This document shows positions 14,480 to 33,427 of a stretch of 64,000 nucleotides of DNA, one piece after another. This stretch comes from an uncultured Tropicimonas sp. (GTDB lineage: Bacteria > Pseudomonadota > Alphaproteobacteria > Rhodobacterales > Rhodobacteraceae). The stretch is taken from contig CANMIP010000003.1 of the NCBI GenBank assembly GCA_947497945.1, positions 124,001 to 188,000 on the forward strand. Reading direction: 5' to 3'. The notes under the pieces are model-generated. The model worked only from the letters and a program-made list of their open reading frames with translations. It was not told the DNA's origin and made no database searches. How positions within the stretch are numbered: position 1 is the stretch's first letter; every line of letters begins with the position of its first letter. Made by a program: the position numbers and the translations under genes.

Positions 14480-15778
14480 ATGGCTGACCAGAACGCCCCC
14501 AGCGACCTGCCGCAGCACACCCGCCGGAACATCCTCGACACACTTGAAATAGACAGACGCCTGCTCGGAATGATCGGAGCCTTTGTCGTCATCTGTCTCG
14601 TGTTTCACTTCTGGACGGGCGGCAGATTCCTGACCCCTCGCAATATCTTCAACCTGACAATCCAGACCGTTTCCGTCGCCATCATGGCAACCGGCATGGT
14701 CTTCGTCATCGTCACCCGCCATATCGACCTCAGCGTCGGTGCCCTGCTGGCCACCTGTTCGGCCATGATGGGCATGACCATGACGACCTGGTTGCCGAAT
14801 GTCTTCGGCGTCGATCTCGGGTCCCCCATCATTGCCCCCATCGCGATCCTCGTCGGAGCGGTTGTCGGCACCGCCATCGGGGCCTTCCATGGCTGGTTGA
14901 TCGGGTATCTGACGATCCCGGCCTTCATCGTCACGCTGGGCGGCCTCTTCGTGTGGCGCAACGTCGCCTGGCACCTCTCGAGTGGCCAGACACTCGGCCC
15001 GCTCGACCCGACCTTCCTCAAGCTCGGCGGAACCTCCGGCACGCTCGGCGCGACCGGCAGCTGGATCCTCGGGATCATCGCGGCCGGGTTCGTCCTCTAC
15101 CTGCTGTTCAACGCCCGCCGCAGCAAGATCGCGCACGGTTTCCCGGTGAAACCCGTCTGGGCAGAGCTGACCATCGCGGGTGCTGTCGCAGGCGCCATCC
15201 TCGGCTTCGTCAAGATTCTCAACTCCTACGAGATCCCGACCCGGCGTCTGGCACGCGAGTTCGCCGCGGCAGGCCAGGAAATGCCCGAAGGCTACACCGA
15301 GGCCTATGGCGTTCCCTATTCCGTGTTGATCCTGATTGTCGTGGCGCTTGTCATGACCGTGGTCGCACAGCGTACCCGTCTTGGCCGCTACATCTTCGCC
15401 ACCGGTGGCAACCCCGAGGCGGCATCCCTCTCGGGTATCGACACCAAGCTGCTGACGGTCAAGATCTTCGCCATTGTCGGCTTCCTCTGCGCCATCTCGG
15501 CGGTCGTCGCCTCTGCGCGCCTGACTTATCACACCAATGATATCGGCACGCTGGACGAACTGCGCGTCATCGCGGCGGCTGTCATCGGCGGCACGGCCCT
15601 CTCGGGCGGCTTCGGCACGATCTACGGCGCCATCCTCGGCGCGCTGATCATGCAGTCGCTGCAATCGGGCATGGCCATGGTCGGCGTCGAAGCGCCCTAT
15701 CAGAACATCGTCGTCGGCATCGTCCTGGTGCTCGCCGTCTATGTCGACATCCTCTATCGCAAGCGGACGGGAGACTGA
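14480..15778 (+). CDS. xylH: Xylose ABC transporter permease
   Basis: 432 aa multi-TM; RHIDLSVGALLATCSAMMG; AAVIGGTALSGGFGTIYGAILGALIM. Confidence 0.92.
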   Translation: MADQNAPSDLPQHTRRNILDTLEIDRRLLGMIGAFVVICLVFHFWTGGRFLTPRNIFNLTIQTVSVAIMATGMVFVIVTRHIDLSVGALLATCSAMMGMTMTTWLPNVFGVDLGSPIIAPIAILVGAVVGTAIGAFHGWLIGYLTIPAFIVTLGGLFVWRNVAWHLSSGQTLGPLDPTFLKLGGTSGTLGATGSWILGIIAAGFVLYLLFNARRSKIAHGFPVKPVWAELTIAGAVAGAILGFVKILNSYEIPTRRLAREFAAAGQEMPEGYTEAYGVPYSVLILIVVALVMTVVAQRTRLGRYIFATGGNPEAASLSGIDTKLLTVKIFAIVGFLCAISAVVASARLTYHTNDIGTLDELRVIAAAVIGGTALSGGFGTIYGAILGALIMQSLQSGMAMVGVEAPYQNIVVGIVLVLAVYVDILYRKRTGD

Positions 15779-15781
15779 CCC

Positions 15782-16555
15782 ATGCCACTTGATACCTCAG
15801 AACGCGGCACGCCCCTGCTGGAGATGCGCAACATGCGCAAGAGCTTCGGCGGCATCCATGCCGTGGAAGACGTCTCGATCGATCTCTATCCGGGCGAGGT
15901 CATGGGGGTTCTCGGCCATAACGGCGCCGGCAAGTCGGTGCTGATGAAGATGCTCTCGGGCGCCTATCCGCGCGATGGCGGCCAGATCCTCATCAATGGC
16001 GAGGAAGCGCATATCGAGAACCCGCGGGATGCGCGCTCCTACAATATCGAGACGATCTACCAGACGCTTGCGCTGGCCGACAATCTCGACGCCGCCTCCA
16101 ACCTGTTCCTGGGGCGCGAACTGGTCACCCCTCTTGGCCTCGTGGACGACGCCAAGATGGAATCCGAGACGCGCAAGATCATGAACCGGCTCAACCCCAA
16201 CTTCCAGCGTTTCCACACGCCGGTCTCGGGGCTCTCGGGCGGCCAGCGGCAATCCGTCGCCATCTCCCGTGCGGTCTATTTCAACGCCAAGATCCTGATT
16301 ATGGACGAACCCACTGCCGCGCTCGGAGTCGAGGAAACGGCCATGGTGGCCCGCCTCATCGACGAGCTGAAGGCGCAGGGACTCGGCATCCTGCTGATCG
16401 ACCATGACATCCACCAGGTGAAGGCGCTCTGCGACCGGGCTTCGGTGATGAAGAATGGCAAGCTGGTCGGCACGGTGCGGGTCAATGAAGTCACCGAGGA
16501 TGACATCCTCGGCATGATCATCCTGGGCAAGAACCCGGAGAATGGAGTGGAGTAA
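15782..16555 (+). CDS. xylG: Sugar ABC transporter ATP-binding protein (single NBD)
   Basis: Walker [13 protein letters not shown]; signature [15 protein letters not shown]; position in xyl cluster. Confidence 0.88.
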
Positions 16556-17994
16556 TGTTTATCGGTCTGGACCTCGGGACATCTGGTCTCAAGGCGCTCT
16601 TGATCGACGAAGACCAGAAGGTCATCGCCGAAGCCACGGCGCCGCTTACCGTCTCACGCCCCGCAGCGGGCTGGTCGGAACAGGCGCCGGCGGATTGGCT
16701 GGCTGCTGCCTCGGCGGCGATGGACGGGCTGGCCGCCGCGTCCTCGCTGTCGGGTGTCAAGGGCATCGGGCTCTCGGGCCAGATGCATGGCGCCACGCTG
16801 CTGGACGCATCGGACGACGTGCTGCGCCCCTGCATGCTCTGGAACGACACGCGCTCCTATGAAGAGGCCGCGGTGCTCGACGCCGCCCCGCTCTGGCGCG
16901 AAATCTCCGGCAATATCGTCTTCCCGGGCTTCACCGCACCAAAGGTAATGTGGGTTCAGAAGAACGAGCCGGAAGTCTTTGACAAACTGGCAAAAGTCCT
17001 GCTTCCGAAAGACTATCTCCGGCTCTGGCTGACCGGCGAATATGTCTCCGAGATGTCGGATGCCGCCGGCACCTCCTGGCTCGACACCGGCAAGCGGGAC
17101 TGGTCGGACGCGCTGCTGGCCGGCTCCGATCTCAGCCGGGACCACATGCCGAGCCTCGTTGAAGGCGCCGAAGCCTCTGGAACGCTGCGCAAGGAGTTGG
17201 CGGATCGCTGGGGCCTGCCCGGCAATGTCGTGGTTGCCGGCGGCGGCGGCGACAATGCCGCGTCCGCCGTGGGCGTTGGCGTGGTCAATGCCGGCGAGGC
17301 CTTCATTTCGCTCGGCACTTCGGGCGTGCTCTTCGCCGCCTCGGATGCCTACCAGCCGGACCCGGCGACGGCCGTGCACACTTTCTGCCACGCCCTGCCC
17401 GACACCTGGCACCAGATGGGCGTGATCCTCGCGGCCACCGATGCGCTGAACTGGTACGCGAACCTCGTCGGCTCGGATGCGGCAACGCTCACCGGCACGC
17501 TGGGCGAGCTGCGCAGTCCCGGTCGCGCGATGTTCCTGCCCTATCTCGGCGGCGAGCGGACCCCGCATAACGACGCCCAGATCCGCGGCGCCTTCACCGG
17601 GCTGGAACATGCCACGGACCAGACAGCCGGCGCCGTTGCCGTGCTCGAAGGCGTGACCCACGCCGTGAAGGACAGCTATGACGCGCTGGCCTCGACCGGG
17701 ACGAAATTCGAGCGGCTCATTGCCGTGGGCGGCGGCTCGCGCTCGGTCTACTGGCTTCAGGCCATCGCCACCTCGCTCGACATGCCGGTGCAGGTGCCGG
17801 TTGCCGGCGATTTCGGCGGCGCGTTCGGCGCGGCACGCCTTGCGCTCATGGCCGCCACCGGCGCCGGGGCCGAGATCGCGACCATCCCGGAAATCTCCAA
17901 GGTGGTCGAGCCGGTCAAGGAACTCAAATCCGCTTTCGCCGATGCGCATGCGCGCTATCGCGACAGTTACCAAGCCCTCAGAGGTCTCTCATGA
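16555..17994 (+). CDS. xylB: Xylulokinase
   Basis: FGGY kinase: [49 protein letters not shown]. Confidence 0.95.
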
Positions 17995-19295
17995 CAAACT
18001 TCTTCGACGGTATCGCACCGGTCAAATACGATCCCTCCAGCGAAAGCGACCTCGCCTTCCGCCACTACAACCCCGACGAGATCGTCATGGGCAAACGGAT
18101 GGAAGATCAGCTTCGTTTTGCCGTCGCCTATTGGCACAGCTTCGCCTGGGAAGGCGGCGACCCGTTTGGCGGCCGCACCTTCGAGCGGCCCTGGTATCCG
18201 CAAGACAACATGGCCAATGCAAAGCTCAAGGCGGATGCCGCCTTCGAGATGTTCGACATTCTCGGCCAGCCCTTCTTCTGCTTCCATGATGCAGACATCG
18301 TGCCCGGCGGCAGCAATTTCGCCGAGTACAAGCGCAACCTCGACGAGATCATCGACTATCTCGCCGAGAAGATGGACGGCAGCAGCACCAGGCTCCTCTG
18401 GGGCACGGCGAACATGTTCACCGACCGCCGCTTCATGTCGGGTGCCGCGACCAACCCCGACCCGGATGTCTTTGCCTGGTGCGCGGCGACGGTGAAATCC
18501 TGCATGGATGCGACGCTGAAACTCGGCGGGCAGAACTATGTGCTCTGGGGTGGGCGTGAAGGCTACGAGACGCTGCTCAACACCGATCTGGTGAAAGAGC
18601 GCAACCAGGCCGGACGCTTCCTGCAGATGGTCGTGGAGTACAAGAAGAAGATCGGCTTCGAGGGCCAGATCCTGATCGAACCGAAGCCGCAGGAGCCGTC
18701 GAAACATCAATATGACTACGATGTGAACACGGTCTATTCCTTCATCAAGGAGTTCGACCTCGAAGGCGAAGTGGCGATGAATATCGAGCAGGGCCACGCG
18801 ATCCTCGCTGGCCACAGCTTCGAGCATGAGCTGGCCATGGCGGCCGCGTTCGGCATCCTCGGCTCCATCGACATGAACAAGAACGACTACCAGTCCGGCT
18901 GGGACACCGATCAGTTCCCGACCAATGTGCCGGAAGTGGCGCTGGCCTATTACGAGATCTTGAAAGCGGGTGGCTTCACCACCGGCGGGACGAATTTCGA
19001 CGCCAAGCTGCGGCGCCAGTCGCTCGACGCCGAAGACCTGATCGCCGGCCATGTCGGTGCGATGGATGTCTGCGCACGCGGGCTGAAGGCGGCGGCGGCG
19101 ATGCTGGAAGATGGCGGCCTCGAAGCGGCCCGCGATGCCCGCTATGCCGGCTGGGACACCGATGCGAACAAGGCGATGCTGGCCTCCGGCACGCTGGAAA
19201 GCATCGCCGAACGGGTGATGGCCGAGGATATCAATCCCGCGCCGCTCTCGGGCCGGCAGGAACGGCTGGAAAACTACGTCAATCGTTTCGTCTGA
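17991..19295 (+). CDS. xylA: Xylose isomerase
   Basis: [45 protein letters not shown] motifs. Confidence 0.97.
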
Positions 19296-19322
19296 CACGC
19301 CCTGTAACCAGGACAGACACAG

Positions 19323-19356
19323 CAGGTGCCCCTCCGGGCGCCTGTTTCCTTTTTTG
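19323..19356 (+). terminator. Terminator of the xyl operon
   Basis: CAGGTGCCC-ctcc-GGGCGCCTG followed by TTTCCTTTTTT. Confidence 0.75.
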
Positions 19357-19642
19357 GGGGCAGGCAAAAGCGCGGCTTGTCTCCGCCAGTTTCCGGAAAG
19401 GAACGGATGGACGGCGCCACTGGCGGCAGCTTCAGTCATGCGCCCACCCCTTCACCGCCCCGCCGCAAACGCCCCGATCAGCCCAACCGTTTCCCTCCGC
19501 CGGGAAGCTGACAGGCAAAGGCTTGCCCAGCCGTCAATTCCGGACACGCGATCACGTGACAGTCCCGAACAATAGGCGTATAACGGCCACAACCGGCCGA
19601 AGCGCCGGATACGAGGCAATTCAGGCAACCAGGGGCAGTCTC

Positions 19643-20212
19643 ATGGACACAGGCACCTTTCTCTCTCGACGCAGCTTTCTCGCATCCGCCGCGGCAGGCA
19701 CGGCGCTGCTCTCCGGCTGTTCCAACGGGGTGAACTCCCAGGGCGGCGCGCGGATCGACCAGCGGGTGGACGCGACACGCTCTTTCCTCTTCTCCACCTA
19801 TCCCGGCACGGCACAGCTCGAACAGAAGGCTTCCGGCGTGCTCTACATGCCGCTGATCACCAAGGCCGGCTTCGGCGTTGGCGGCAGCTACGGGACAGGC
19901 GCGCTGCGGATCAACAATTCCACCGTGGACTACTACGAAGCGCTGCAGGCCAATGTCGGCTTCCAGATCGGCGCCCAGCAATACGCCCATGCACTCTTCT
20001 TCATGACCGCCGACGCGCTGCGGAACTTCCGCACCTCGCATGGCTGGTCCGTCGGGGCCGATGCCGAATATGCGCTGGTCGACCAGGGCGGCAACCTCTC
20101 GGCGGAGACGCTGACGACGCTGGAACCGGTCGTGGCGCTGGTCTTTGCCCAGGCAGGCCTGATCGCCGGCGCGACGCTTGGCGGGACGAAATACCGCCGG
20201 ATCATCCCCTGA
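19643..20212 (+). CDS. SYLF/Ysc84-domain lipid-binding protein (Tat lipoprotein)
   Basis: LSRRSFLASAAAGTALLSGC (Tat motif and lipobox); YPGTAQLEQKASGVLYMPLITKAGFGVGGSYGTGAL. Confidence 0.75.
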   Translation: MDTGTFLSRRSFLASAAAGTALLSGCSNGVNSQGGARIDQRVDATRSFLFSTYPGTAQLEQKASGVLYMPLITKAGFGVGGSYGTGALRINNSTVDYYEALQANVGFQIGAQQYAHALFFMTADALRNFRTSHGWSVGADAEYALVDQGGNLSAETLTTLEPVVALVFAQAGLIAGATLGGTKYRRIIP

Positions 20213-20517
20213 GCACCCCCCGACCTGTCCGGCCGGACAGGTTCCTGAAGAGATTCACGGGCGCCCGGGCTTGGGGCGACTGTGTTTTTCTGGGGGCCGC
20301 AAACCGTGTTGGTCGCCGATGCCCGTACGCAATGCTCATCACTCAGGCTACAGGGTAAGTCCGTCCGGCAAAGGAGAAGTTCGCCACGCAATCGATTTGA
20401 GAAAAGAAGCCTTGCTGGCCCCGTAGAGGGACCCTTTCAGCTCCATTTCCTCAAGAAATCGCGTATTTGCGCGAAGTGGTGGATTTCGGTTCAGGTTTTA
20501 GGCAAACCACCGCGGGA

Positions 20518-21120
20518 TCACGCATACAGGTCGAATTGCTGCTCGCGCCAAAGCTCCGGGATGGGGTTTCCGCCCTTGATGGCATAGCCCAGCCCTCCAT
20601 CGCTCAAACCGCGGCTCATCGCCCATTCCCCGACATTGTACCAGATGTGAGGCCCCGGACAGTTGCTACGCCGATTGCCGGGCACGGTCTGCCGATGGGC
20701 GAAGACATGGGTGATGCCCACGGCATTCTGGAGATAATTCACCAGGCACCGTCCGGAGTGGATCTGAGCCCAGGTCGGCATGTCATGGCTGGAATTTCCC
20801 TTCCACCATCGCCCGCTATCCATTGGAAAGTTTCCGACAAACTCGACACCGACCGTGTAGGAGTTGAAACCTCCCGAGCAGGGACGGTTCTCAGTTTCGT
20901 CGAATTTGGTGACGGTCGTTCCATTCGGCAGGATGACAAAATGTGCATTGATCCTGTCATAGGCACCGGTGTCATTACCGCGGTTGAACGAGGTTTGGTG
21001 GAGCACGAGACCCGTCACATCGGAGATTTGTCGTAGCCTGCCCACAACGGTGTTTACCCCGTTGTTGATGCGGTCGTGCCAGTTGAACAGGTAGGTGGAA
21101 CGCTGCACGTGTGAAGTCAT
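20518..21120 (-). CDS. N-acetylmuramoyl-L-alanine amidase-like (PGRP) protein
   Basis: GLVLHQTSFNRG, GVEFVGNF, ITHVFAHRQTVPGNRRSNCPGPHIW zinc-amidase motifs. Confidence 0.75.
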   Translation of the reverse strand: MTSHVQRSTYLFNWHDRINNGVNTVVGRLRQISDVTGLVLHQTSFNRGNDTGAYDRINAHFVILPNGTTVTKFDETENRPCSGGFNSYTVGVEFVGNFPMDSGRWWKGNSSHDMPTWAQIHSGRCLVNYLQNAVGITHVFAHRQTVPGNRRSNCPGPHIWYNVGEWAMSRGLSDGGLGYAIKGGNPIPELWREQQFDLYA

Positions 21121-21405
21121 GTCTGCCCCTTCAATGTCTAAACAAAAATCATTCAATGGGGCAATGTAGCAGGTTCCGAGCCAAAACGGGAAACATCGTC
21201 ATCCTTGCTGTTTTGGCGGGCCAAGTTCGGCTTGAAGCCCTTGGTTGAAAGGCACGCAGTTCGACGATCAGGGGCAGACCATCTTACGCCTGGGTATGGC
21301 GTTGAGCGATTTCAACCTGGCCGCTCCGGGCTCACAGCCGACATCCTGAGGCAGCGGTGTGACGCCAGTATTCTCGTCTGACAACCACCTGTCCCTGCCC
21401 GCCCG

Positions 21406-22374
21406 TCACTTCAACATCCACTCTCCCTCCGGGAAGAAGGCGTGGAAGGCAAAGGCAAACAGCACGTCATGAGGCAGGTCCTTGCCCGCTTGGTCCCGCA
21501 CCCGGATCGAGCCGACATCCCGTCCGCGCGCGATCGACTGGCTGTCCAGCGCCGAAGCCTGCCCCGGCGTCCAGCTCAGCACGAGCCCGGCCTCGCGGAT
21601 CTCCTCGGCCTGCGCCAGGCGCTCCACCGGCCATGCCCGCTCCCCGACCCGAACCACCCGCGCCAGCGGCGCGATGCCATGCGGCGGCAGCTCTCCATTA
21701 TAGAGGAAGGGACGCGCGGCGCTGTCATAGCCGGAATAGGGGTTGCGGCCGTAGGATCGGTTATATTCCGGCTCGGCCATGACCAGCCCGTCCGGATTGC
21801 GGGCGCGAAACGCGTTCCAGCTTTCCATCCAGCTTGGCAACAGCTTCAGTTCGGTACCGGTATGAGCGCCGACGATCCCGGTGCCGATGGCCTGCTGCCA
21901 CCAGCTTTCGGTCTGGCGGTCGAACATGATCATGTCGGAGTTGCGCAGCTTTCCCGAGACGCCGAACTCCAGCACCTGCCCCGCGACCCGGCGGTCGAAG
22001 GTCAGGCCGGAATTGCACAAGGGGCAGAAGGTGACGGCCACCGGGATGCCGCCCACGTTGTCATTCACGATCTCATGCCAGGTCAGGTAGCGGATCGGAT
22101 AGGCGCGCGGCCGGGCGCCTTCGATCTCGACCGTGATCACGGGCTCGCGCCCGCCGATCCGGCTTTCCTGATCCGCCTCCATGAAACGCGGCGCCGAGAG
22201 CGCCGGGATGCCGTCCTTGGGCGGCCCGCCGGAGATGATCTCGACCCAGTTCCCGATGCTGGTCCTCGAAAAATCGGTCCGCGGCCATTCATGTTTCCAG
22301 AACTCGGGATCGGCGGCGGCGGCAAGCGGCGCAACGGCAAGCGCGGCGGCGAAGAGCAACGGGGCGAGACGCAT
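21406..22374 (-). CDS. DUF3179 domain-containing protein
   Basis: FCPLCNSGLTFDRRV...SGKLRNSDMIMFDRQTESWWQQ; signal peptide. Confidence 0.85.
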   Translation of the reverse strand: MRLAPLLFAAALAVAPLAAAADPEFWKHEWPRTDFSRTSIGNWVEIISGGPPKDGIPALSAPRFMEADQESRIGGREPVITVEIEGARPRAYPIRYLTWHEIVNDNVGGIPVAVTFCPLCNSGLTFDRRVAGQVLEFGVSGKLRNSDMIMFDRQTESWWQQAIGTGIVGAHTGTELKLLPSWMESWNAFRARNPDGLVMAEPEYNRSYGRNPYSGYDSAARPFLYNGELPPHGIAPLARVVRVGERAWPVERLAQAEEIREAGLVLSWTPGQASALDSQSIARGRDVGSIRVRDQAGKDLPHDVLFAFAFHAFFPEGEWMLK

Positions 22375-22481
22375 GGGGTGTCCTTCCTGTTCGGTCTCAC
22401 CAGCCTGCCAGCGCCAGGCCGCGCTGCACAGCCCCGCTCACGCAGGGTTCACAGAATGCGTTTTCGCGTGAAGAGCCGCCG

Positions 22482-23834
22482 TCAGAGCGACGGGCCGCGC
22501 TGAAGCCGCGTCCCATCGGTGAAGCGCGCATAGCGGAAGCGCGCGAGACCATGCTCCGGCCCCTGCCCCGTCACCATCCGCGCCAATGCCCGGCCAACGC
22601 CCGGACCAATGCCAAACCCGTGGCCGCTCATCCCCGTCGCCACGATCAGCCCCGGCAATCCCGGCGCCCGGTCGATCACCGGAACGACATCGGGCATGGT
22701 GTCGATCATGCCAGCCCAGCTGTCGCGGATGACGGGCGTGCCGAGCGCCGGGAAACGCTCGGCGAAACGCGACAGCATCAGCCCGACATGGTCCCCCACC
22801 GGCTCTGGCTCCAGCACCCGGACCCGTTCGAAGGGCGTGACCTCTTCGGCGCTCCAGCCACGCGGCGTCCGCCAGCCATCGGGGAAGCCCGCCGGCGCGC
22901 CCATCTCCAGGTCGGTATGGGCAAAACTGTCCCGGATCAGCGGCATGTAGCGATGCAGGTGGCGCAGGGCATCCGGTCCCAGGAAGAACCCATGCCGGTC
23001 GCCGAGCGCCAGCGAGTAGCCGCCATCCTCCCGCCGGCGCATCGCCAGCTCGCCATCGACCGCGTTTCCGGGCGCGAACCCCGCCATCGGATGGGTCTGG
23101 ACCACGCTGGCGCGCACGGCAAGCTGCGGAAGGTCCAGCCCGTGGCCGCGCAGGAACAGCGAGGACCAGGCACCGCCCGCCAGCACGACCTGATCACAGG
23201 CCACGGACCCCAACTCGGTCCGGACAGCACGCAGCCGCCCGGCCTCCAGTTCCAGCCGGCGCACAGCGCAATTCTCGATAATCCGGGCACCGGCGTCCCG
23301 CGCCAGCCGGGCCACGGCCGGAACCGCTGTCCAGGGCTCGCCGCGCGCGTCCGAGGGCGTTGTCACCCCGCCGATCCAGCGCCCGTCCGAGCGGCCGGAA
23401 AAGAGCGCGGCCGCCGCCCCGGCATCCAGCATATGCGACTGCACCCCGTGCCGTCGCGCCGTCTCGATCCAGGCCTCGAACCGCGCCATTTCGTCTTCGC
23501 GCGTGGTCAGGTAGCTCACCCCGACCGTCTTCACCCCGCAGGCCCCGCCCAGCCGCGCGTCGACCTCTTTCCAGAGCCGCAGAGCGTCGATCATCAGCGG
23601 CAATTCGGCCTCGTCGCGCCCCTGTTGACGAATCCACCCCCAGTTGCGCGAGCTTTGCTCGCCAGCCACCCGCCCCTTCTCGCACAAGAGGACGGACTGC
23701 CCGGCTTCGGCAAGATAGAGCGCGGTGAAGACACCGATGACCCCGGCCCCGATAATCACCGTATCGACGGCCTCGGGCAGTGGATCGGCGCAGTTGATCG
23801 GCGTGTCGATGGAAATGCGAGCGGGGTCTGTCAT
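22482..23834 (-). CDS. FAD-dependent oxidoreductase (D-amino acid oxidase/DadA family)
   Basis: VDTVIIGAGVIGVFTALYLAEAGQSVLLCEKGRVAGEQSSRNWGWIRQQGRDE; C-terminal GLIVATGMSGHGFGIGPGVGRALA. Confidence 0.88.
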   Translation of the reverse strand: MTDPARISIDTPINCADPLPEAVDTVIIGAGVIGVFTALYLAEAGQSVLLCEKGRVAGEQSSRNWGWIRQQGRDEAELPLMIDALRLWKEVDARLGGACGVKTVGVSYLTTREDEMARFEAWIETARRHGVQSHMLDAGAAAALFSGRSDGRWIGGVTTPSDARGEPWTAVPAVARLARDAGARIIENCAVRRLELEAGRLRAVRTELGSVACDQVVLAGGAWSSLFLRGHGLDLPQLAVRASVVQTHPMAGFAPGNAVDGELAMRRREDGGYSLALGDRHGFFLGPDALRHLHRYMPLIRDSFAHTDLEMGAPAGFPDGWRTPRGWSAEEVTPFERVRVLEPEPVGDHVGLMLSRFAERFPALGTPVIRDSWAGMIDTMPDVVPVIDRAPGLPGLIVATGMSGHGFGIGPGVGRALARMVTGQGPEHGLARFRYARFTDGTRLQRGPSL

Positions 23835-24137
23835 GGAGACGGGTCTAGCCCGTCCGGACTGGTCTTGGAAAGGCCGGGCCCGCCGGAATCGGCTGCCCGG
23901 TCCGCATGTTGCCGCCGCAGGCGGGCCCCTACCCGATCCCGCGCCCGGATTTCGGGCATTTGCGGTAGCGCGGACGGCGTGGCCAGGCCGAGATGGAACG
24001 CGGAAGGGGTGCGATCCGTCAAGGCGATCCTGGCGCCGAGCGCATTCCCGCATGGCGCGACTTGGCCCACGTCTTGGCGCAATTGTCGCAGCGCCCATGT
24101 CCCGATCGCCATCCCCCCCGCGCAGAGGAGAGGAAGA

Positions 24138-24344
24138 ATGAGCAAGGGCATTCTGAAGGGCGCAACCGAGGAGGAACTTGCGGAAGCGCTGACCTTCGCA
24201 CGCAATTTCAAGAAACCGGGCAAGGGGCTTGAAGCCGACAGCGGGACCACCCGCGCGCATGCCTGCAACGAGAATTGCGACTGCTATATCGAACTCGAGA
24301 TCATGCAGGCGGCCGGCATTGGCGGATATAGCTACGGCAGCTGA
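24138..24344 (+). CDS. Candidate RiPP precursor peptide (68 aa, Cys-rich C-terminus)
   Basis: ATG at 24138 after gaggagaggaag; MSKGILKGATEEELAEALTFARNFKKPGKGLEADSGTTRAHACNENCDCYIELEIMQAAGIGGYSYGS*; immediately upstream of a radical SAM/SPASM maturase-like gene. Confidence 0.7.
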   Translation: MSKGILKGATEEELAEALTFARNFKKPGKGLEADSGTTRAHACNENCDCYIELEIMQAAGIGGYSYGS

Positions 24345-24408
24345 AACAGGCGGGCAAGCCAGGACTGGCGCGCCCCGGCAGGCAAGCCACGCGGCCGGCC
24401 GGTATCCC

Positions 24409-25751
24409 GTGGCCCGTTTCCGGACCAGCCGGCATAGCGATGTCTTCGATGCCGCGACCAACGCCATCCTGCGCGTGCCCGAGGCGCTCTTGCGGGCATT
24501 GCCCGCGCTGATGCAGGGCGCCGCGCCCGATCCCGACGCGCTGGAGATCGCGCCCGACGAGGTGGACGCCGCGCTCCGCCTGTTTCGCAGCCTGCAGGAC
24601 GAGGCCGGGATCCTGGTGCCACAACAGCCGGACCGGTTCGTTGCCCGGCGTCCGGCGGATGCCGATGATGGGCAGAAGCTGTTTTCGCACCTGCTCAGTG
24701 TCACCGAAGCCTGCAATATCCGCTGCAGCAATTGCGTCTATGGCGGCGCTTATGACGGCAAGCGCAAGCACAACAATGCGCGGATGTCGCCGCAGACCGC
24801 CCGTCGGGCGATAGACCATCTCGCGGCACATTCGGCGCGGGCCGAATACCCGTTCCGCATGACCAGCATTGCGCTGCTCTGGACCGAGGAGATCCTGGAC
24901 TTCCTGGCCGAGTACGAGGTCGACCTCGTGGTCAGCCTCGACGGGCCGCGCGAGGTGCATGATCGCAACCGTGTCGGGCCGAAGCAGGACGGCACCTTCG
25001 ATCGTGTCATGGCGAACCTGGAGCGGTTGCAGCAGCGCCACCCCGACTATTTCCTGACCAGGGTCAGCCTGAACGCGGTGGCGACGGCGCCCCTGGACCT
25101 TGTTGCGCTGGACCGCTTCTTTTCCCGTTTTCCCATCCAGGTGTCGATCTCCTCGGTCGAGCCGCGGGGCTTTGCCGGGGCCGGACCGGCGCCCATCGAA
25201 GCGGTCGGTTGGCCGCAGATGCGGGAGAAATTCCTCAAGGGCTGCCTGGAGCGCGTCTTCGACCGGCCGAGCTTCAAGAGAGAGGGCTATAATTTCGTCT
25301 ATTACCTGTTCATTCGCGACATGCAGCGCCTGCGACACCGCGTGCCCATGGCGGGTTTCCCGGAGGAGCTGGCGAGTTTCGGAAATTGCGTTCCGGGCGT
25401 CGAGCGGGTCTTTGTCAACGCGCGGGGCGACTTCGAGACCTGCGAAAAGACCGATGGCTGCGCACTGATGACGCTGGGCGATCTCGAAACCGGCATCGAC
25501 CCCGCGAAGGGCCGCGAGATCCATGACCGGTTCAACGGCATGGCTTTCGAGCATTGCCGCAGCTGTTTCAATCTCCGGCAGTGCCGGATCTGCTTCGCCC
25601 ATGCCAGCTCGGCGACGGGTTCTCAGCCCGAAAACGGCGTCGGAACTGTTCGGTGATGCGCACGCGCTTCAAGGAGATGCTGTCGCTCTATTGCGAGATC
25701 CTCGAACGCGATCCGAAGGCGCTCGATTTCATCTCCCGGCCCCGGGCGTGA
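24409..25751 (+). pseudogene. Radical SAM/SPASM peptide maturase, apparently damaged (internal deletion and C-terminal frameshift)
   Basis: CNIRCSNC (CX3CX2C) after LSVTEA; VSLDGPREVHDRNRV; SPASM Cys CEKTDGC, CRSCFNLRQCRIC. Frame ends at 25656, while the expected tail ...RRRNCSVMRTRFKEMLSLYCEILERDPKALDF continues in another frame to 25751. GTG start at 24409 is a guess. Confidence 0.7.
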
Positions 25752-25772
25752 AGCCGCCCCGGGTCAAGAAAA

Positions 25773-25805
25773 ACGGCCGGCGCCCTCGCTGGGATCGCCG
25801 GCCGT
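25773..25805 (-). terminator. Hairpin terminator (PPIase operon; convergent region)
   Basis: ACGGCCGGCG...CGCCGGCCGT, followed on the minus strand by TTTTTC. Confidence 0.65.
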
Positions 25806-25825
25806 CCTGAACTGTAAATGCGCCG

Positions 25826-26443
25826 TCAGCGCTCGACCGTGACCTTCACGATCCGGTCCGGGTTCTTCACCGCGCCATTGGCCGCCGAGCTGCCCTTCTT
25901 GATGGAATCGACCACGTCCATGCCGTCGATGACGCGCCCGACAACCGTGTACTGGCCGTTCAGATGCGGCGCGGGCGCGAACATGATGAAGAACTGGCTG
26001 TTGGCCGAGTTCGGATTCTGCGAGCGGGCCATGCCGACCACGCCGCGATCGAAGTTCACATCGGAAAACTCCGCCGGCAGGTCGGGCTGCGCGGAGCCGC
26101 CCGTCCCGGCCCGGCGCGTATCGCCCCCGGCCTTGCCGAACTGCACGTCGCCGGTCTGCGCCATGAAACCGTCGATCACGCGGTGGAAGACCACCTCGTC
26201 ATATTCCCCGCCCTCGGCGAGCGACACCAGCCGGTCGGCATGTTTCGCGGCGACCTCGGGCAGCAGGTCGATCACGACCGTCCCGTTGGCCTCGCCGGCA
26301 ATCTCCAGCACCAGGTTCGGGCCCGGCCCGTCCTCGGCGGCCATCGCCGGCGAAACGGCGCCAAGCTCGACCGCGGCATAGCCCAGCACGAGGGCAACCC
26401 CGGCAGCAAAGATCCCGCCGGCGATCCAGCGATCACGCGACAT
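25826..26443 (-). CDS. Peptidyl-prolyl cis-trans isomerase, cyclophilin type (membrane-anchored/secreted)
   Basis: VVFHRVIDGFMAQTGDVQFGKAGGDTRRAG; N-terminal TM/signal. Confidence 0.92.
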   Translation of the reverse strand: MSRDRWIAGGIFAAGVALVLGYAAVELGAVSPAMAAEDGPGPNLVLEIAGEANGTVVIDLLPEVAAKHADRLVSLAEGGEYDEVVFHRVIDGFMAQTGDVQFGKAGGDTRRAGTGGSAQPDLPAEFSDVNFDRGVVGMARSQNPNSANSQFFIMFAPAPHLNGQYTVVGRVIDGMDVVDSIKKGSSAANGAVKNPDRIVKVTVER

Positions 26444-26936
26444 CGGCAGCCACCTTCACGGAGATCATCTTGTCGGGGTTCGCAGGCGGCTCGCCACGGG
26501 TGATCGCGTCTACATGCTCCATGCCCTCGATGACCCGGCCATAGACCGTGTACTGGCCGTTGAGGAAATCATTGTCGGAGAAGTTGATGAAGAACTGGGA
26601 ATTGGCCGAGTTCGGGTCCTGCGAGCGGGCCGCCCCCAGCGAGCCGCGCGCATGGGGCAGCTTGGAGAATTCCGCCGGCAGGTCCGAAAGCTCGGAGCCG
26701 CCGCGGCCAGCCATGCGAACATCGCCGGTCGACTTGCCGAACTGCACATCGCCCGTCTGCGCCATGAAGCCGTCGATCACGCGGTGGAAGACCACGCCGT
26801 CATAGGCTCCGGACCGGGCCAGTTCCTTCATACGCTCCGAATGCTTCGGCGCCACGTCCGCCAGCAATTCGATGACCACGTTGCCATCCTTCAGCTCGAT
26901 GATGACAGTGTTCTCCGGATCCTTGATCTCGGCCAT
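26433..26936 (-). CDS. Peptidyl-prolyl cis-trans isomerase, cyclophilin type (cytoplasmic)
   Basis: MAEIKDPENTVIIELKDGNVVIELLADVAPKHSERM; VVFHRVIDGFMAQTGDVQFGKSTGD. Confidence 0.93.
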   Translation of the reverse strand: MAEIKDPENTVIIELKDGNVVIELLADVAPKHSERMKELARSGAYDGVVFHRVIDGFMAQTGDVQFGKSTGDVRMAGRGGSELSDLPAEFSKLPHARGSLGAARSQDPNSANSQFFINFSDNDFLNGQYTVYGRVIEGMEHVDAITRGEPPANPDKMISVKVAADVA

Positions 26937-27083
26937 GTTTCGTTCCTTCCTTGGCTCGCATAGCGGGTATGCCTCCCGCGCTGTCGGCGCGACCCTAAAC
27001 CGCGTTAGCGGAAACCGAAACCCCATAGCTGCGCGTTAGCGCTTGCGGTATTGCAACGGCAACTTCATCCAAGGAGCATTCTC

Positions 27084-28259
27084 ATGAGCTGGAAGACCCT
27101 CGACGACATGGACATGGCCGGCAAGACAGTGCTGGTCCGCGTCGACATCAACGTTCCCGTCAAGGATGGCGTCGTCACCGACACGACCCGCATCGACCGC
27201 ATCGTGCCCACCGTCAAGGACGTGCTGGCCGCCGGCGGCAAGCCGGTTCTGATGGCGCATTTCGGCCGTCCCAAGGGCCAGGTCGTCCCGGAAATGAGCC
27301 TCGGCCAGATCGTCCCGGCGCTGGAAGCCGCCTTCGGTCAGCCGGTCAAGTTCGCCGCCGACAATTTCGAAGCCGCCGCCGCCGATCTCAAGGATGGCGA
27401 GATCCTGCTGCTCGAAAACGTGCGTTTCTTCCCCGAAGAGACCAAGAACGACCCCGAATTTGCCGCCAAGATCGCGAAGCTCGGCGACATCTATGTCAAT
27501 GACGCCTTCTCTTGCGCCCACCGTGCCCACGCCACGACCGAAGCCATGGCCCGCGCCCTGCCTGCCGCCGCCGGCCGCCTGATGGCCGCCGAGCTCTCGG
27601 CACTGGAAGCCGCTCTCGGCACACCCGAGCGTCCCGTGGTCGCCGTGGTCGGCGGCGCCAAGGTCTCGACCAAGCTGGACCTGCTTTCCAACCTGATCGA
27701 AAAGGTCGACCACCTCGTCATCGGTGGCGGCATGGCCAATACCTTCCTCGTCGCCAAGGGCGTCGAGATCGGCACCTCGCTGGCCGAGCGCGACATGGCG
27801 GACACCGCCCGCGCGATCCTGGAGAAATCCGAGACCACCGGCTGCACCATCCACCTGCCGATCGATATCGTCGTTGCCGGCGAGTTCGCCGCCGGGGCCG
27901 CCAACGAGACCCTGCCGGTCGATCAATGCCCGGCCGACAAGATGATCCTCGACGCTGGCCCGGCCACGGTCGAAGCACTCAAGGGCGTCTTTGCCGAATG
28001 CAAGACGCTGATCTGGAACGGCCCGCTCGGCGCCTTCGAGATCGAGCCCTTCCACAAGGGCACCTACGAGGCCGCCCTGGCCGCCGCCGCGCTGACTGCC
28101 GAGGGCAAGCTGAAGACGGTTGCCGGTGGCGGCGACACGGTTTCCGCGCTCAACAAGTCCGGCGCTGCCGAGAACTTCACCTATATTTCCACCGCCGGGG
28201 GCGCCTTCCTCGAATGGATGGAAGGTAAGGAATTGCCCGGCGTTGCCGCTCTTGGCTGA
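27084..28259 (+). CDS. pgk: Phosphoglycerate kinase
   Basis: [52 protein letters not shown]. Confidence 0.97.
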
Positions 28260-28278
28260 TACTCAATGAAAAAAATGA

Positions 28279-28309
28279 AGGAGGCCGGGCGTTTTGCCCG
28301 GCCTCTTTG
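28279..28309 (+). terminator. pgk terminator
   Basis: GAGGCCGGGC-gtttt-GCCCGGCCTC-TTT. Confidence 0.75.
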
Positions 28310-28526
28310 CATCTGAAGACCAGGGGGAGGCAGTTTCAGCGCCGCTGCTGCGCTCGGCCAAAGCCAGGCCTGCCGGCTCTCTGCCCATCCAATCCCTGCG
28401 CCGATACACGGTTTGACGCCGGATTTCCGGCTGTCGGGGTGAACCAATTCGACGCCGGCCTGCATCATTGTCGCCATCGCGCGAACCCCTCTTCAAATCC
28501 GCTCCCCAGCATGACTAGAAGAGGCC

Positions 28527-29765
28527 ATGAACCAGACACTGCCCGCCGATGACATCGCCGCGGGGCCCGTGCGCCACCGCCGGGTGATCTACGTGCCGGG
28601 CTATGATCCGTTCCACGCCCGGCGCTATCGCGAACTCTACCGGACAGAAGCCCGCGCACAGGCCGCCATCTCAGGCTATTCCATCGAGGTCGAAGGCCAG
28701 AAAGGCCGCGACCAGTATTCCTGGCATGTGACCGGCGAGATGGAGGGCGCGCGGGTCGAGGCGGATATCTCGCTCCTGGCCTGGTCCGATATCGTCAAGG
28801 GATCGATGGAGCGCGGGCTTTTCCAGACCTATATGCAGGCGGTGCGGACGCTGTGGGTCTATGGGCGCTCCGGTGCCTTGCGCGCGGTGATGCGGCTGAG
28901 CAAGGGGCCCGGGATCGCTGCTCTCTACCCGGCGACCTTCCTGACATTGCAATTGATCGCGGCGCTTCTGGTCGCCTGGGGGCTCGGCTGGGCGCTCTCG
29001 CTTGTTGCGCCCTGGTGGGCCGGTCTGGCAGCACTGGCCGTCGTGCGGCCGATCCTCGCCTGGTTCGCACGGCATGACAATCTTATCCTCGCCCGCTACC
29101 TGCTTCACAATTATGCGTTTTCCTCCGAGATCGGCGGCGCCAACCCGCCCGCGCTGGAAGCCCGCATCACCGAGTTCGAGGAGGTGCTGGCCGAGGCGAT
29201 GACCGGCGATTTCGACGAGGTGCTGGTCGTTGCCCATTCCTCCGGCGCCCATATCGCCGTCTCCATGCTCTCGGACCTGATCCGCGGCGGGCGCGCGCCC
29301 GAAGGCGGTCCGGTGCTGTCGCTGCTCACGGTCGGACAGGTGATCCCGATGGTCTCGCTGCTGCCGACGGCCGCAAGGCTGCGCGCGGACCTGAACTATC
29401 TCTCTGCCTCCGACCGGCTGACCTGGATCGACGTGACCGCCCCCGGCGATGGCTGCGCCTTCGCGCTGAGCGATCCGGTTGCCGTCTCGGGCGTCGCGCC
29501 GGAAAACCAGCGCTGGCCGCTCATCCTCTCCGGAGCCTTCACCCAGACCCTGAGCCCGGAACGCTGGAAAGAGCTGCGCTGGCGCTTCTTCCGTCTGCAT
29601 TTCCAGTATCTCTGCGCCTTCGACCGGCCGAACGATTACGACTATTTCCGCATCACCGCCGGCCCGAAAACGCTGGCCCAACGGCTGGGCCACCGCAAGC
29701 CGAGCCCGAGCGCCAAGCGCGACGCGGTGTCGAAGCAAAGGACAATGGAGCTTCGCGATGTCTGA
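28527..29765 (+). CDS. Alpha/beta hydrolase-like membrane protein of unknown function
   Basis: 412 aa; central TM pair; VLVVAHSSGAHIAVSML nucleophile-elbow-like motif; overlaps the P450 start. Confidence 0.7.
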   Translation: MNQTLPADDIAAGPVRHRRVIYVPGYDPFHARRYRELYRTEARAQAAISGYSIEVEGQKGRDQYSWHVTGEMEGARVEADISLLAWSDIVKGSMERGLFQTYMQAVRTLWVYGRSGALRAVMRLSKGPGIAALYPATFLTLQLIAALLVAWGLGWALSLVAPWWAGLAALAVVRPILAWFARHDNLILARYLLHNYAFSSEIGGANPPALEARITEFEEVLAEAMTGDFDEVLVVAHSSGAHIAVSMLSDLIRGGRAPEGGPVLSLLTVGQVIPMVSLLPTAARLRADLNYLSASDRLTWIDVTAPGDGCAFALSDPVAVSGVAPENQRWPLILSGAFTQTLSPERWKELRWRFFRLHFQYLCAFDRPNDYDYFRITAGPKTLAQRLGHRKPSPSAKRDAVSKQRTMELRDV

Positions 29766-31128
29766 CCTCCTGCCGCCCAAACCGCCGGCGCGCGCCGAGA
29801 AGGTCTCGCTGCTGAACCATGTTCGGCTCTTTCGGCGCGACATCCTCTCCGCCCAGCCCGAAAAGCTCTACCGCGCCTGGATGGCCGAATTCCGCACCCC
29901 CTTTTTCCGGTCTTTCATGATCAACCAGCCCGAGCTGGTGAAACGCGTACTCAACGAGCGCCCGGAGGATTTCCCGAAATCGGACCGGATCCGCGAAGGG
30001 CTGTCGCCGCTGCTCGGCAACTCGGTCTTCATCACCAATGGCGAGACCTGGAAGCGGCAGCGGCGCATCATCGACCCGGCCTTCGAGGGCGGGCGGCTGC
30101 GCGAGACATTCCCGGCGATGTGGGAAGCAACCGAGGCCGCCGTGGCGCGGCTCGCCGAACGGGCCGGCAAGGGGCCGATCGAGATCGAGGCCGAGACCAG
30201 CCATGCGGCGGCCGATGTCATCTTCCGCACGCTCTTCTCGATCCCCATCGATCACGAGGTCGCGGCCGAGGTCTTCGAGGAGTTCCGCGCCTATCAACGC
30301 ACACAGCCGCTGGTCAACATCGCCGCCTTCCTGCCCATCCCGCGCTGGTTCCCCCGCTTTCACAAGCGCGCCACCCGCGCGAGCGCGGCGCGGATCCGAG
30401 GGCTGATCGCGCAGCTGACCGCGGACCGAACGGTCGAGATCGCAGACGGAACCGCGCCCGACGATCTCGCGACCAAGATCATGACAACGCGCGACCCGGT
30501 GACCGGCGAAATCTTCGAGGCCGCCGAGATGGTCGACCAGGTGGCGATCTTCTTCCTCGCCGGCCATGAGACCTCCGCCTCGGCGCTGGCTTGGGCGCTC
30601 TACCTGCTTGCCTTGTATCCGGAGGTGCAGGAACGGGTGGCCGACGAGGCGCGCGATGCGATCGATCCCGCGCAGCCACGTTTCTCCATGGTCTCGAAAA
30701 TGGGCTATACGCGGGATGTGTTCCGCGAGGCGTTGCGGCTCTATCCGCCTGTGCCGATGATGGTGCGCGAGACCACGCGGGCGGAACGTTTCCGCGATCG
30801 GGACGCACCGGAGGGCAGCCAGGTCGTGCTCTCGCCCTGGCACCTGCATCGCCAGCCGCGCCTCTGGGACAATCCCGACGCGTTCGATCCCGCCCGCTGG
30901 AAGACGGAGAACGGCAAGAGTTGCCAGCGGGACGCCTATATCCCCTTCTCGGCCGGACCGCGCGTCTGCACCGGGGCCGGGTTCGCCATGCTCGAGGGGG
31001 TGTTGCTGCTGGGCATGCTCGCGCGCTCTTTCCGCATCACCCCGGTCGCGGGGCGCGAGCCGGTGCCGGTGGCGCATCTGACGGTGCGGTCCAAGGACGG
31101 GATCTGGCTGGAGCTTCAACCGCGCTGA
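29758..31128 (+). CDS. Cytochrome P450
   Basis: FFLAGHETSASALAWALYLLALYP I-helix; EALRLYPPVP; heme loop FSAGPRVCTGAGFAM. Confidence 0.95.
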   Translation: MSDLLPPKPPARAEKVSLLNHVRLFRRDILSAQPEKLYRAWMAEFRTPFFRSFMINQPELVKRVLNERPEDFPKSDRIREGLSPLLGNSVFITNGETWKRQRRIIDPAFEGGRLRETFPAMWEATEAAVARLAERAGKGPIEIEAETSHAAADVIFRTLFSIPIDHEVAAEVFEEFRAYQRTQPLVNIAAFLPIPRWFPRFHKRATRASAARIRGLIAQLTADRTVEIADGTAPDDLATKIMTTRDPVTGEIFEAAEMVDQVAIFFLAGHETSASALAWALYLLALYPEVQERVADEARDAIDPAQPRFSMVSKMGYTRDVFREALRLYPPVPMMVRETTRAERFRDRDAPEGSQVVLSPWHLHRQPRLWDNPDAFDPARWKTENGKSCQRDAYIPFSAGPRVCTGAGFAMLEGVLLLGMLARSFRITPVAGREPVPVAHLTVRSKDGIWLELQPR

Positions 31129-31212
31129 GACAAGGCTCGACCTCTCGGGGGCAGAGCGTTCGATTGCACTTGCCGTGGCGAGTTTGGCCGGAGCAAGCCC
31201 CTTTGTGGGTAT

Positions 31213-31249
31213 CTTCTCCTGCTTGTGAGAATTTCCCTCGCCGGAGGCG
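31213..31249. repeat. Dispersed intergenic element (divergent copy)
   Basis: cttctcctgcttgtgagaatttccctcgccggaggcg resembles the element at 40066-40099; both in convergent gaps. Confidence 0.35.
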
Positions 31250-31324
31250 TCGAGCCCGACACGGCCCCTGTCAGGCAAAACAGCGCCTTGAGGAACCACC
31301 CTGTCTGACGGGATCGGCGCGCCG

Positions 31325-31573
31325 TCAGCGCCAGGTGCGGATCATTGCGCTGTTGCAGATCGCCAGGACCCCCCTGGCCTCGCCGCGTGACTCCGCAGCG
31401 CAGTGCCGCATCGCCCGATCGAAGGTTGCATGGGTGGCTGACTGACCGAGCTCTCCGGGGACACGGCGGATCACGCCGCCCTGTCGGGTCGGTTTTGCAT
31501 TCAGCAAGCGGAGCAATCCTTGCTCCGGCGTCAGATTCGCAGGCATGGTTCGCATGGCCCCAGCTTGCGGCAA
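31325..31573 (-). CDS. Hypothetical protein
   Basis: 82-aa ORF in an intergenic gap; no recognised family. Confidence 0.35.
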   Translation of the reverse strand: MPQAGAMRTMPANLTPEQGLLRLLNAKPTRQGGVIRRVPGELGQSATHATFDRAMRHCAAESRGEARGVLAICNSAMIRTWR

Positions 31574-31578
31574 AGCGG

Positions 31579-31806
31579 TTAATCCTCTCCTAACCGCTGC
31601 TGATAATCTTTCAGCACGAAGAGACGGATCGCCGAGGCCAGCCCCATTTCCAACCCGCGATCACGGTCGATCCGGGCGGCCAGCGCATTGATCGTCTGGC
31701 CCTGACGGGCCGCGATGGCGCGAAAGGCGCGCCAGAATTCATCTTCCAGCGAAACCGAGGTCCGATGCCCGGACAATGTCAGCGAATGCTTGACCGGACG
31801 GCTCAC
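31579..31806 (-). CDS. Ribbon-helix-helix domain protein
   Basis: VKHSLTLSGHRTSVSLEDEFWRAFRAIAARQGQTINALAARID; ATGA overlap with upstream Hint gene. Confidence 0.8.
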   Translation of the reverse strand: MSRPVKHSLTLSGHRTSVSLEDEFWRAFRAIAARQGQTINALAARIDRDRGLEMGLASAIRLFVLKDYQQRLGED

Positions 31807-32495
31807 CGCGCCCGCTCCGCGCGCAGCCGCGCTTCCGGGCCAAACAGGTCGAGATCATGTTCGAGCCCCGGAAAACAGGCAAGGATCTCCGCGCGTTGGC
31901 TGCTATTGGCCGGTTCCGGCTGCAGCACATTGGGGTGGAAGCTCTCGATGGCCAACCCGTCGGCGGCGAGGATCGCGTGGCGCTCCAGCAGGAGCTGGAC
32001 ATAGGTGACCGGGCGGGCCGGAGCGAGCTGGATTCCCTTCAAGCCGACCATCTCGCGCGCTTCGATCAGCACGCCTTCCGGCGGTCCCCCCGGCAGGTTC
32101 AACAGGATCCCGGCCAGCGGCGAGAGGCGCAAATCGAGGCGAGGATTGCCACCCGAAAAGGCGTTGCGCGGCACCAGGATCGGAGCGAGGGCGGGTTGTT
32201 CGACCATCTGGCGCGTGCTGAGAGCGCGACGGCCGACCCATTGCAGCGGCAGGGCGCCGTGATCCACCGTGAGGACCAGGTCGCCCGGCGCCAACAGCCC
32301 GGCCGCGCGCGGGCCGCGCGGGGTCATGACCCGGGCTTCGGCCGAAAGTGCGGTCTGCAACCAGGCCCCGGCCACCACCGGCATTTGCGGAATGTCGCTC
32401 CGCTCGTCATGGCTCAAGAGATAAGGACGCGGCTGCCGACGCGGCGCGTTGATGGGGCGAGACCGCCCGAAAGCTCTCCTGGGGACGTTTTCCAT
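31803..32495 (-). CDS. Hint (Hedgehog/intein) domain-containing protein
   Basis: ARVMTPRGPRAAGLLAPGDLVLTVDHGALPLQWVGRRAL. Start reassigned to MENVPRRAFG. Confidence 0.8.
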   Translation of the reverse strand: MENVPRRAFGRSRPINAPRRQPRPYLLSHDERSDIPQMPVVAGAWLQTALSAEARVMTPRGPRAAGLLAPGDLVLTVDHGALPLQWVGRRALSTRQMVEQPALAPILVPRNAFSGGNPRLDLRLSPLAGILLNLPGGPPEGVLIEAREMVGLKGIQLAPARPVTYVQLLLERHAILAADGLAIESFHPNVLQPEPANSSQRAEILACFPGLEHDLDLFGPEARLRAERAR

Positions 32496-32815
32496 GCCCG
32501 GGTTCGTCCAATCTGCCTCGATCCGCTCTATCGGCGGCGGCGTCTGATGCGCCGTTGCTTTTCGCGAGCAGAATTCCCCCAACGATGCTCCCTGGCAATC
32601 GTGGAACGGGACAAAAGCCCGGTTTGTGACAGAAATGCATGGACCGCATACCAGGCTGCAAGCGGGCAGAACCAGACAGCGAGCGCGAAGACACACGCCC
32701 CGCCTCGTTTTTGCTGAAAGTCTTTTCGCGTTCTGCTGGCAATCCAGCATCAGCCATTTCTCGACAGCTTCAGGTGCAGCGGCTACGCACGAGAGACCAG
32801 CGACAGGAAAATGAT

Positions 32816-33424
32816 ATGGCCCGCGTTCTGCTCCTCTATGCCCATCCCGGACATCGCCACAGCCGCGTGAACCGCGCGTTGTTCCGCGCAGCGCGTGAGG
32901 TCGACGGGATCACCGCTATCGACCTCTACGCCCGCTATCCCCGCTTCGATATCCGCATCGACGACGAACAGGCCCAGTTGCTGGCGCATGACATCCTCGT
33001 CTTCCAATATCCGATCTTCTGGTATTCCTCGCCCTCCCTGATCAAGGAATGGCTGGACCTGGTGCTGGAACACGGCTTCGCCTATGGCCATGAGGGCACC
33101 CGGCTTGCCGGCAAGAAGATGATGCTGGCCGTCTCCGCCGCCGGCCCCGAGACTGCCTACTCTCCCGAGGGCTACCAGAACTTCCCGCTGCGCAGCTTCC
33201 TGTCGCCGATGGAACAGACGGCCAATCTCTGCAAGATGCCCTTCCTGCCGCCTTACGCGCTCTTCCACGCGCTGCAGGCGCCGGAGGACCGCACGCTGGA
33301 TGCCCATGTCGCGGGCTATGTCCGGCTGCTCGAAGCGCTGCGCGACGACAGCTACGATTTCGAGGCCGCCGACAGCCTGGCCCATGTCAGCCATGACACC
33401 CTGCCCATTCGAGCGGAGAGCTGA
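32816..33424 (+). CDS. NAD(P)H-dependent oxidoreductase (KefF/quinone reductase-like flavodoxin fold)
   Basis: LLYAHPGHRHSRVNRALFRAAREVDGI; DILVFQYPIFWYSSPSLIKEWLDLVLEHGFAYG; followed by a Kef antiporter gene. Confidence 0.88.
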   Translation: MARVLLLYAHPGHRHSRVNRALFRAAREVDGITAIDLYARYPRFDIRIDDEQAQLLAHDILVFQYPIFWYSSPSLIKEWLDLVLEHGFAYGHEGTRLAGKKMMLAVSAAGPETAYSPEGYQNFPLRSFLSPMEQTANLCKMPFLPPYALFHALQAPEDRTLDAHVAGYVRLLEALRDDSYDFEAADSLAHVSHDTLPIRAES

Positions 33425-33427
33425 GCC

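Follow-up and report, generated by a model that had tools for sequence, protein, structure and literature searches.

A short cysteine-rich open reading frame (ORF) lies directly upstream of a radical SAM/SPASM-type gene in the window analysed here, a 64,000-nt stretch of DNA from an uncultured Tropicimonas sp. Do these two genes form a RiPP cassette, to which family would it belong, and could it still work? On the evidence below, we consider it likely that the pair is a two-gene, Cys-rich radical SAM RiPP cassette of the CLI_3235/CcpM kind, probably horizontally acquired and now decayed; it is strain-specific and probably a non-working relic, not a new kind of system. The features concerned are the following.

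24138-24344, + strand: 68-aa Cys-rich precursor-like peptide ORF (translation, profile searches and shuffles)
24124-24136, + strand: ribosome-binding site AGAGGAGAGGAAG of the peptide ORF (sequence)
24409-25656, + strand: broken radical SAM/SPASM maturase gene (P0002), probable GTG start at 24409 (profile matches and alignment)
25641-25751, + strand: C-terminal remainder of the maturase, RNCSVMRTRFKEMLSLYCEILERDPKALDFISRPRA, which is read in a different frame and includes the last conserved Cys (sequence and alignment)
23835-25825, no strand: stretch of about 2.0 kb between the genes for an FAD oxidoreductase and a peptidyl-prolyl isomerase, absent in the closest sequenced relative (locus comparison)

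A coding-like ORF upstream of a maturase gene

The peptide ORF translates as MSKGILKGATEEELAEALTFARNFKKPGKGLEADSGTTRAHACNENCDCYIELEIMQAAGIGGYSYGS followed by a stop, exactly as the first-pass annotation had read it, and the good ribosome-binding site claimed there is indeed strong and ends directly 5′ of the ATG. Residues 1-24 form an N-terminal extension, residues 25-49 a CLI_3235-like leader/Cys motif (KKPGKGLEADSGTTRAHACNENCDC) and residues 50-68 a tail. The codon-position GC bias looks coding-like, because GC3 minus GC2 is 0.26, a value matched in no more than 18 of 10,000 base shuffles. The ORF had also been described as the tail of a longer spurious ORF. It is the end part of a longer open frame that runs antisense to the FAD-dependent oxidoreductase gene, and the 68-aa reading is therefore the sensible one. 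The maturase gene begins 65 nt downstream, and the NCBIfam match of this frame agrees with its earlier description as a radical SAM/SPASM gene. No sigma-70-type promoter and no convincing terminator was found, and positions 15000-35000 of the window gave no Rfam match.

Relation to the CLI_3235/CcpM family

The best of 47 NCBIfam matches of the maturase was TIGR04068 ('Cys-rich peptide radical SAM maturase CcpM'), at 190.7 bits; the match is fragmented into three pieces and stays below the cut-off of 500 bits. For the peptide, the sole NCBIfam match was TIGR04065 (CLI_3235 bacteriocin precursor), the precursor family paired with CcpM, at 16.0 bits (E 0.01, residues 25-50) against a curated cut-off of 26 bits. 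The same model gave scores of 37.5-55.2 bits for four peptides from related loci. The nearest family, which had not been recognized before, can thus be named from these two matches as CLI_3235/CcpM.

A scan of genome contigs gave no match when its patterns came solely from the window maturase; patterns derived from an alignment were needed, and these collected 80 loci with related maturases (≤32% identity, mostly Firmicutes). Many of them carry a Cys-rich MKKLGKK... peptide directly upstream of the maturase, the layout seen in the window, and weak matches of the window peptide against all ORFs of the related loci land on those peptides. Among 18,428 ORF segments from the relatives' loci, 15 of the 20 top phmmer matches of the peptide were among the 33 precursor ORFs. 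By comparison, 60 shuffles preserving the Cys positions placed at most 6 precursor ORFs in the top 20 (mean 1.4), and 60 full shuffles at most 4. A profile constructed from 26 precursors encoded next to maturases scored the peptide at 13.4 bits over residues 25-49, which 1 of 5000 composition shuffles equalled, and ranked the frame holding the peptide first among all window frames. This profile aligns KKlgKKnsnedgTleAYaCscnCvC to KKPGKGLEADSGTTRAHACNENCDC, and the shared part is KKxGK...GTxxAxACxxxCxC. Because the Cys-preserving shuffles fall short and the profile aligns the leader part, the relation between the peptide and these precursors is, by these comparisons, one that goes beyond Cys content.

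The family hallmark is presumably an MKKLGKK-type leader at the extreme N terminus, followed by [TS]xxA[YF]xC. In the window peptide, KKPGK...GTTRAHAC stands at residues 25-43 with 24 extra residues N-terminal of it, an extension missing from the aligned CLI_3235-type peptides. The core is short, with three Cys, and the tail is unrelated to the precursors. A search of small ORFs beside maturase homologs, as proposed in the first-pass annotation, therefore gave a divided answer: the Cys motif is shared, whereas the GGYSY tail, offered as a family signature, is unconserved in the precursors of related loci and was rejected as a family mark. A Chlorobiaceae peptide (L014:5203-5412) that also has GGY was rejected as a tail homolog, as it aligns at the leader only (BLASTP E 0.045).

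Together, these results support the initial reading of the pair as a RiPP-type precursor beside a radical SAM/SPASM maturase, given that homologous maturases in many bacteria adjoin peptides with the same Cys-rich motif. By sequence, the pair belongs with the CLI_3235/CcpM family but falls short of both formal cut-offs.

It is unlikely that the pair represents another radical SAM RiPP class (SCIFF, lachnocin, PapB-type ranthipeptide or sactipeptide) with a convergent resemblance to CLI_3235. The core has few Cys (CxxxCxC), and the maturase also matches the lachnocin (114 bits), PapB (92.6 bits) and SCIFF (70.2 bits) models, but all of these score far below CcpM, the peptide matches the CLI_3235 model alone, and that match takes in the leader part KKxGK...GTxxA beyond the Cys. 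Ranthipeptides, SCIFF and sactipeptides, compared by sequence alone, likewise have a Cys-rich core beside a radical SAM/SPASM enzyme, but their maturase models fit the window enzyme much less well. We consider it very unlikely that the ORF is a chance open frame with cysteines beside a decayed radical SAM gene, rather than a substrate. Such a frame could well be short, below the family cut-off and without a close homolog, as this one is, but the strong ribosome-binding site and coding-like GC bias, the location exactly at the precursor position of the relatives and a motif similarity far exceeding that of Cys-preserving shuffles all argue against chance.

Comparison with related loci

SacP23 from Paenibacillus polymyxa is an expressed member of the CLI_3235 family that is active against several Gram-positive bacteria, which it kills, and its 19-aa leader ends just before the Cys-rich core; an ABC transporter, a subtilase and TIGR04066/TIGR04069 proteins are encoded in the same cluster (PMC10731318). 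The window pair resembles such CLI_3235/CcpM systems in the precursor directly upstream of a radical SAM/SPASM maturase, the KKxGK...GTxxAxAC leader-to-core motif, the CxC-type core and the best maturase family match. It differs from them in its sub-threshold scores, the 24-aa N-terminal extension, a total of only three Cys, an unshared tail, a broken maturase and an alphaproteobacterial host. Unlike the SacP23 cluster, it has no linked transporter, subtilase or TIGR04069 partner: the genes examined around the cassette (a DUF3179 protein, the oxidoreductase, two isomerases and pgk) include no RiPP accessory gene, and TIGR04069 (acyl-carrier-like partner) had no match in the whole genome.

Several non-Firmicutes loci (Chlorobiaceae L014, Bryobacterales L015 and L143-L150) likewise have a small Cys-rich ORF adjoining a CcpM-like maturase. 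Their maturases show about 25-33% identity to the window enzyme and, unlike it, keep the GGE motif discussed below; their peptides show little similarity to the window peptide. The L014 peptide, from a Chlorobiaceae MAG, is a 70-aa candidate unannotated precursor (MEEKKEYTELIRTNFFAKSGKQHTKGISNCGSNCTGCDCPDGDIGAGGVSISLVAVGHAGGYAGDLSVQY) with a strong ribosome-binding site and without a meaningful NCBIfam match, encoded just downstream of its GGE-keeping maturase. Elsewhere, L063:3549-3704 (Aminicenantes MAG) and L091:1785-1937 (Acidobacteria MAG) encode small peptides that resemble each other (MLKKLT...ERTANL/ICxxxCLxYC...) and lie upstream of maturases from a common group; these peptides possibly form a separate precursor family. 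Locus L144 (minus strand, 143-301 and 319-507) has tandem Cys-rich small ORFs with CTCLSCECWC and CCPCQCWC cores beside a radical SAM enzyme.

Lesions in the maturase gene

The first-pass annotation was right about the neighbouring radical SAM/SPASM gene and did not mention that it is broken, although its reference to an 'intact maturase homolog' perhaps betrays a suspicion. TIGR04068 profile positions 5-137 and 172-264 abut in the window, followed by 342-432, so about 33 residues (profile positions 138-171) are missing at about 24843/24844. The deleted stretch would hold FYGGEP. All 87 aligned relatives keep this GGE, which makes contact with AdoMet in the structure of SkfB (PMC6231123). In the same alignment, in which CNxRC conservation is partly built in because the relatives were collected using that pattern, the window enzyme has Ile at the invariant Asn that follows the GGE stretch and Asn in place of the Tyr preceding the third cluster Cys. 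The CX3CX2C motif (C124, C128 and C131) and six SPASM cysteines (C349, C367, C405, C408, C414 and C417) are intact. Near the 3′ end, a frameshift leads to a premature end in the shifted frame and leaves the last conserved auxiliary-cluster Cys out of frame; this Cys and the C-terminal helix can be read in the other frame listed above.

As the AdoMet-contacting GGE is missing, the maturase as encoded is very probably a dead enzyme. Taken by itself, the frameshift might stem from an error in sequencing or assembly; the deletion, the Asn-to-Ile change and the frameshift jointly argue for a pseudogene. The decay may be recent, because the maturase frame is otherwise open and the Fe-S cysteines are kept.

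We regard it as highly improbable that the cassette still works, either because the maturase is unusual in doing without GGE (and the frameshift is bypassed or arose in assembly) or because another enzyme cross-links the peptide in trans. The intact cluster cysteines and an intact peptide ORF with a good ribosome-binding site would suit it. Against it stand the AdoMet-contacting GGE of all 87 relatives, the loss of the next invariant Asn, the out-of-frame C-terminal Cys and a genome in which no second CcpM-like enzyme was found; the one other radical SAM match there resembles an anaerobic sulfatase maturase. It is also very unlikely that the peptide represents an alphaproteobacterial branch of Cys-rich radical SAM RiPPs whose leader is extended at the N terminus, whose core is a minimal CxxxCxC and whose modification still proceeds through a GGE-less maturase or an enzyme in trans.

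A strain-specific stretch at a variable site

The oxidoreductase and isomerase genes are 1,991 bp apart here, compared with 110 bp in the closest sequenced relative (G773, locus L114). None of the other 8 genomes of the genus carries the cassette, and no match in them was better than 1e-8; at the insertion site, other members of the genus have different content or lack the oxidoreductase. No relatives of the peptide were found in 394 genomes of the family, and the family, phylum, class and genus samples held no close alphaproteobacterial homolog of peptide or maturase, the weak maturase matches in the phylum, class and genus samples being remote radical SAM enzymes. A plasmid search with the peptide gave matches at E 4-9 only, and a scan of viral contigs gave remote radical SAM enzymes only. 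No telling repeat was found at the ends of the 2-kb stretch, and its GC content (0.656; window, 0.638) does not betray a donor.

A tree of the maturases places the window enzyme, which has a long branch, outside the clade of 56 mainly Firmicutes rows (support 97/100), and it does not group with CcpM-type enzymes. Its neighbours are lineages of Acidobacteriota, Chlorobiota, Chloroflexota and others, with poor resolution among them; in the Acidobacteriota-side genomes, peptides next to such maturases likewise have CxC-rich cores. Horizontal acquisition followed by decay would fit these data best. The long branch outside the clade, together with the sub-cut-off peptide score, the 24-residue extension and the possible frameshift error, was counted against the reading as a decayed CLI_3235/CcpM cassette.

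Other features of the surroundings deserve mention. The stretch from ppi1 to the DUF3179/lipoprotein genes varies in almost every genome of the genus (L114-L121), making it a variable insertion site. A lone N-acetylmuramoyl-L-alanine amidase (Amidase_2) gene (20518-21156, − strand) lies between lipoprotein-like and DUF3179 genes and was not detected at the same place in the compared relatives from the genus. Further along the window, a 916-aa protein with PAP2 and Peptidase_S8 (subtilase) matches (55246-57996, − strand) comes before a 636-aa protein (53326-55236, − strand) that has a short trypsin-like match, an unusual-looking pair of predicted secreted proteases.

Proposed pathway and significance

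In working relatives, the radical SAM/SPASM enzyme would bind the Lys-rich leader (KKLGKK...) and cross-link cysteines of the CxC-rich core, most likely as thioethers; the leader would then be cut off by a protease, and export would fall to a transporter. By analogy with SacP23, the leader of the window peptide would extend to about residue 42 (...TRAHA), followed by the core CNENCDCYIELEIMQAAGIGGYSYGS. In this strain, the peptide most likely either stays unmodified or is not produced, because the maturase is without the AdoMet-binding GGE segment and its C-terminal end.

Cassettes resembling CLI_3235/CcpM, which were found here almost exclusively in Firmicutes plus a small number of other phyla, are now extended to an alphaproteobacterium, and the window peptide is a candidate precursor that standard models miss. 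The cassette is ordinary as a kind, and its host makes it mildly interesting. With its defective maturase, the cassette serves chiefly as a signpost to an intact version that the donor, or a relative not yet sampled, may carry.
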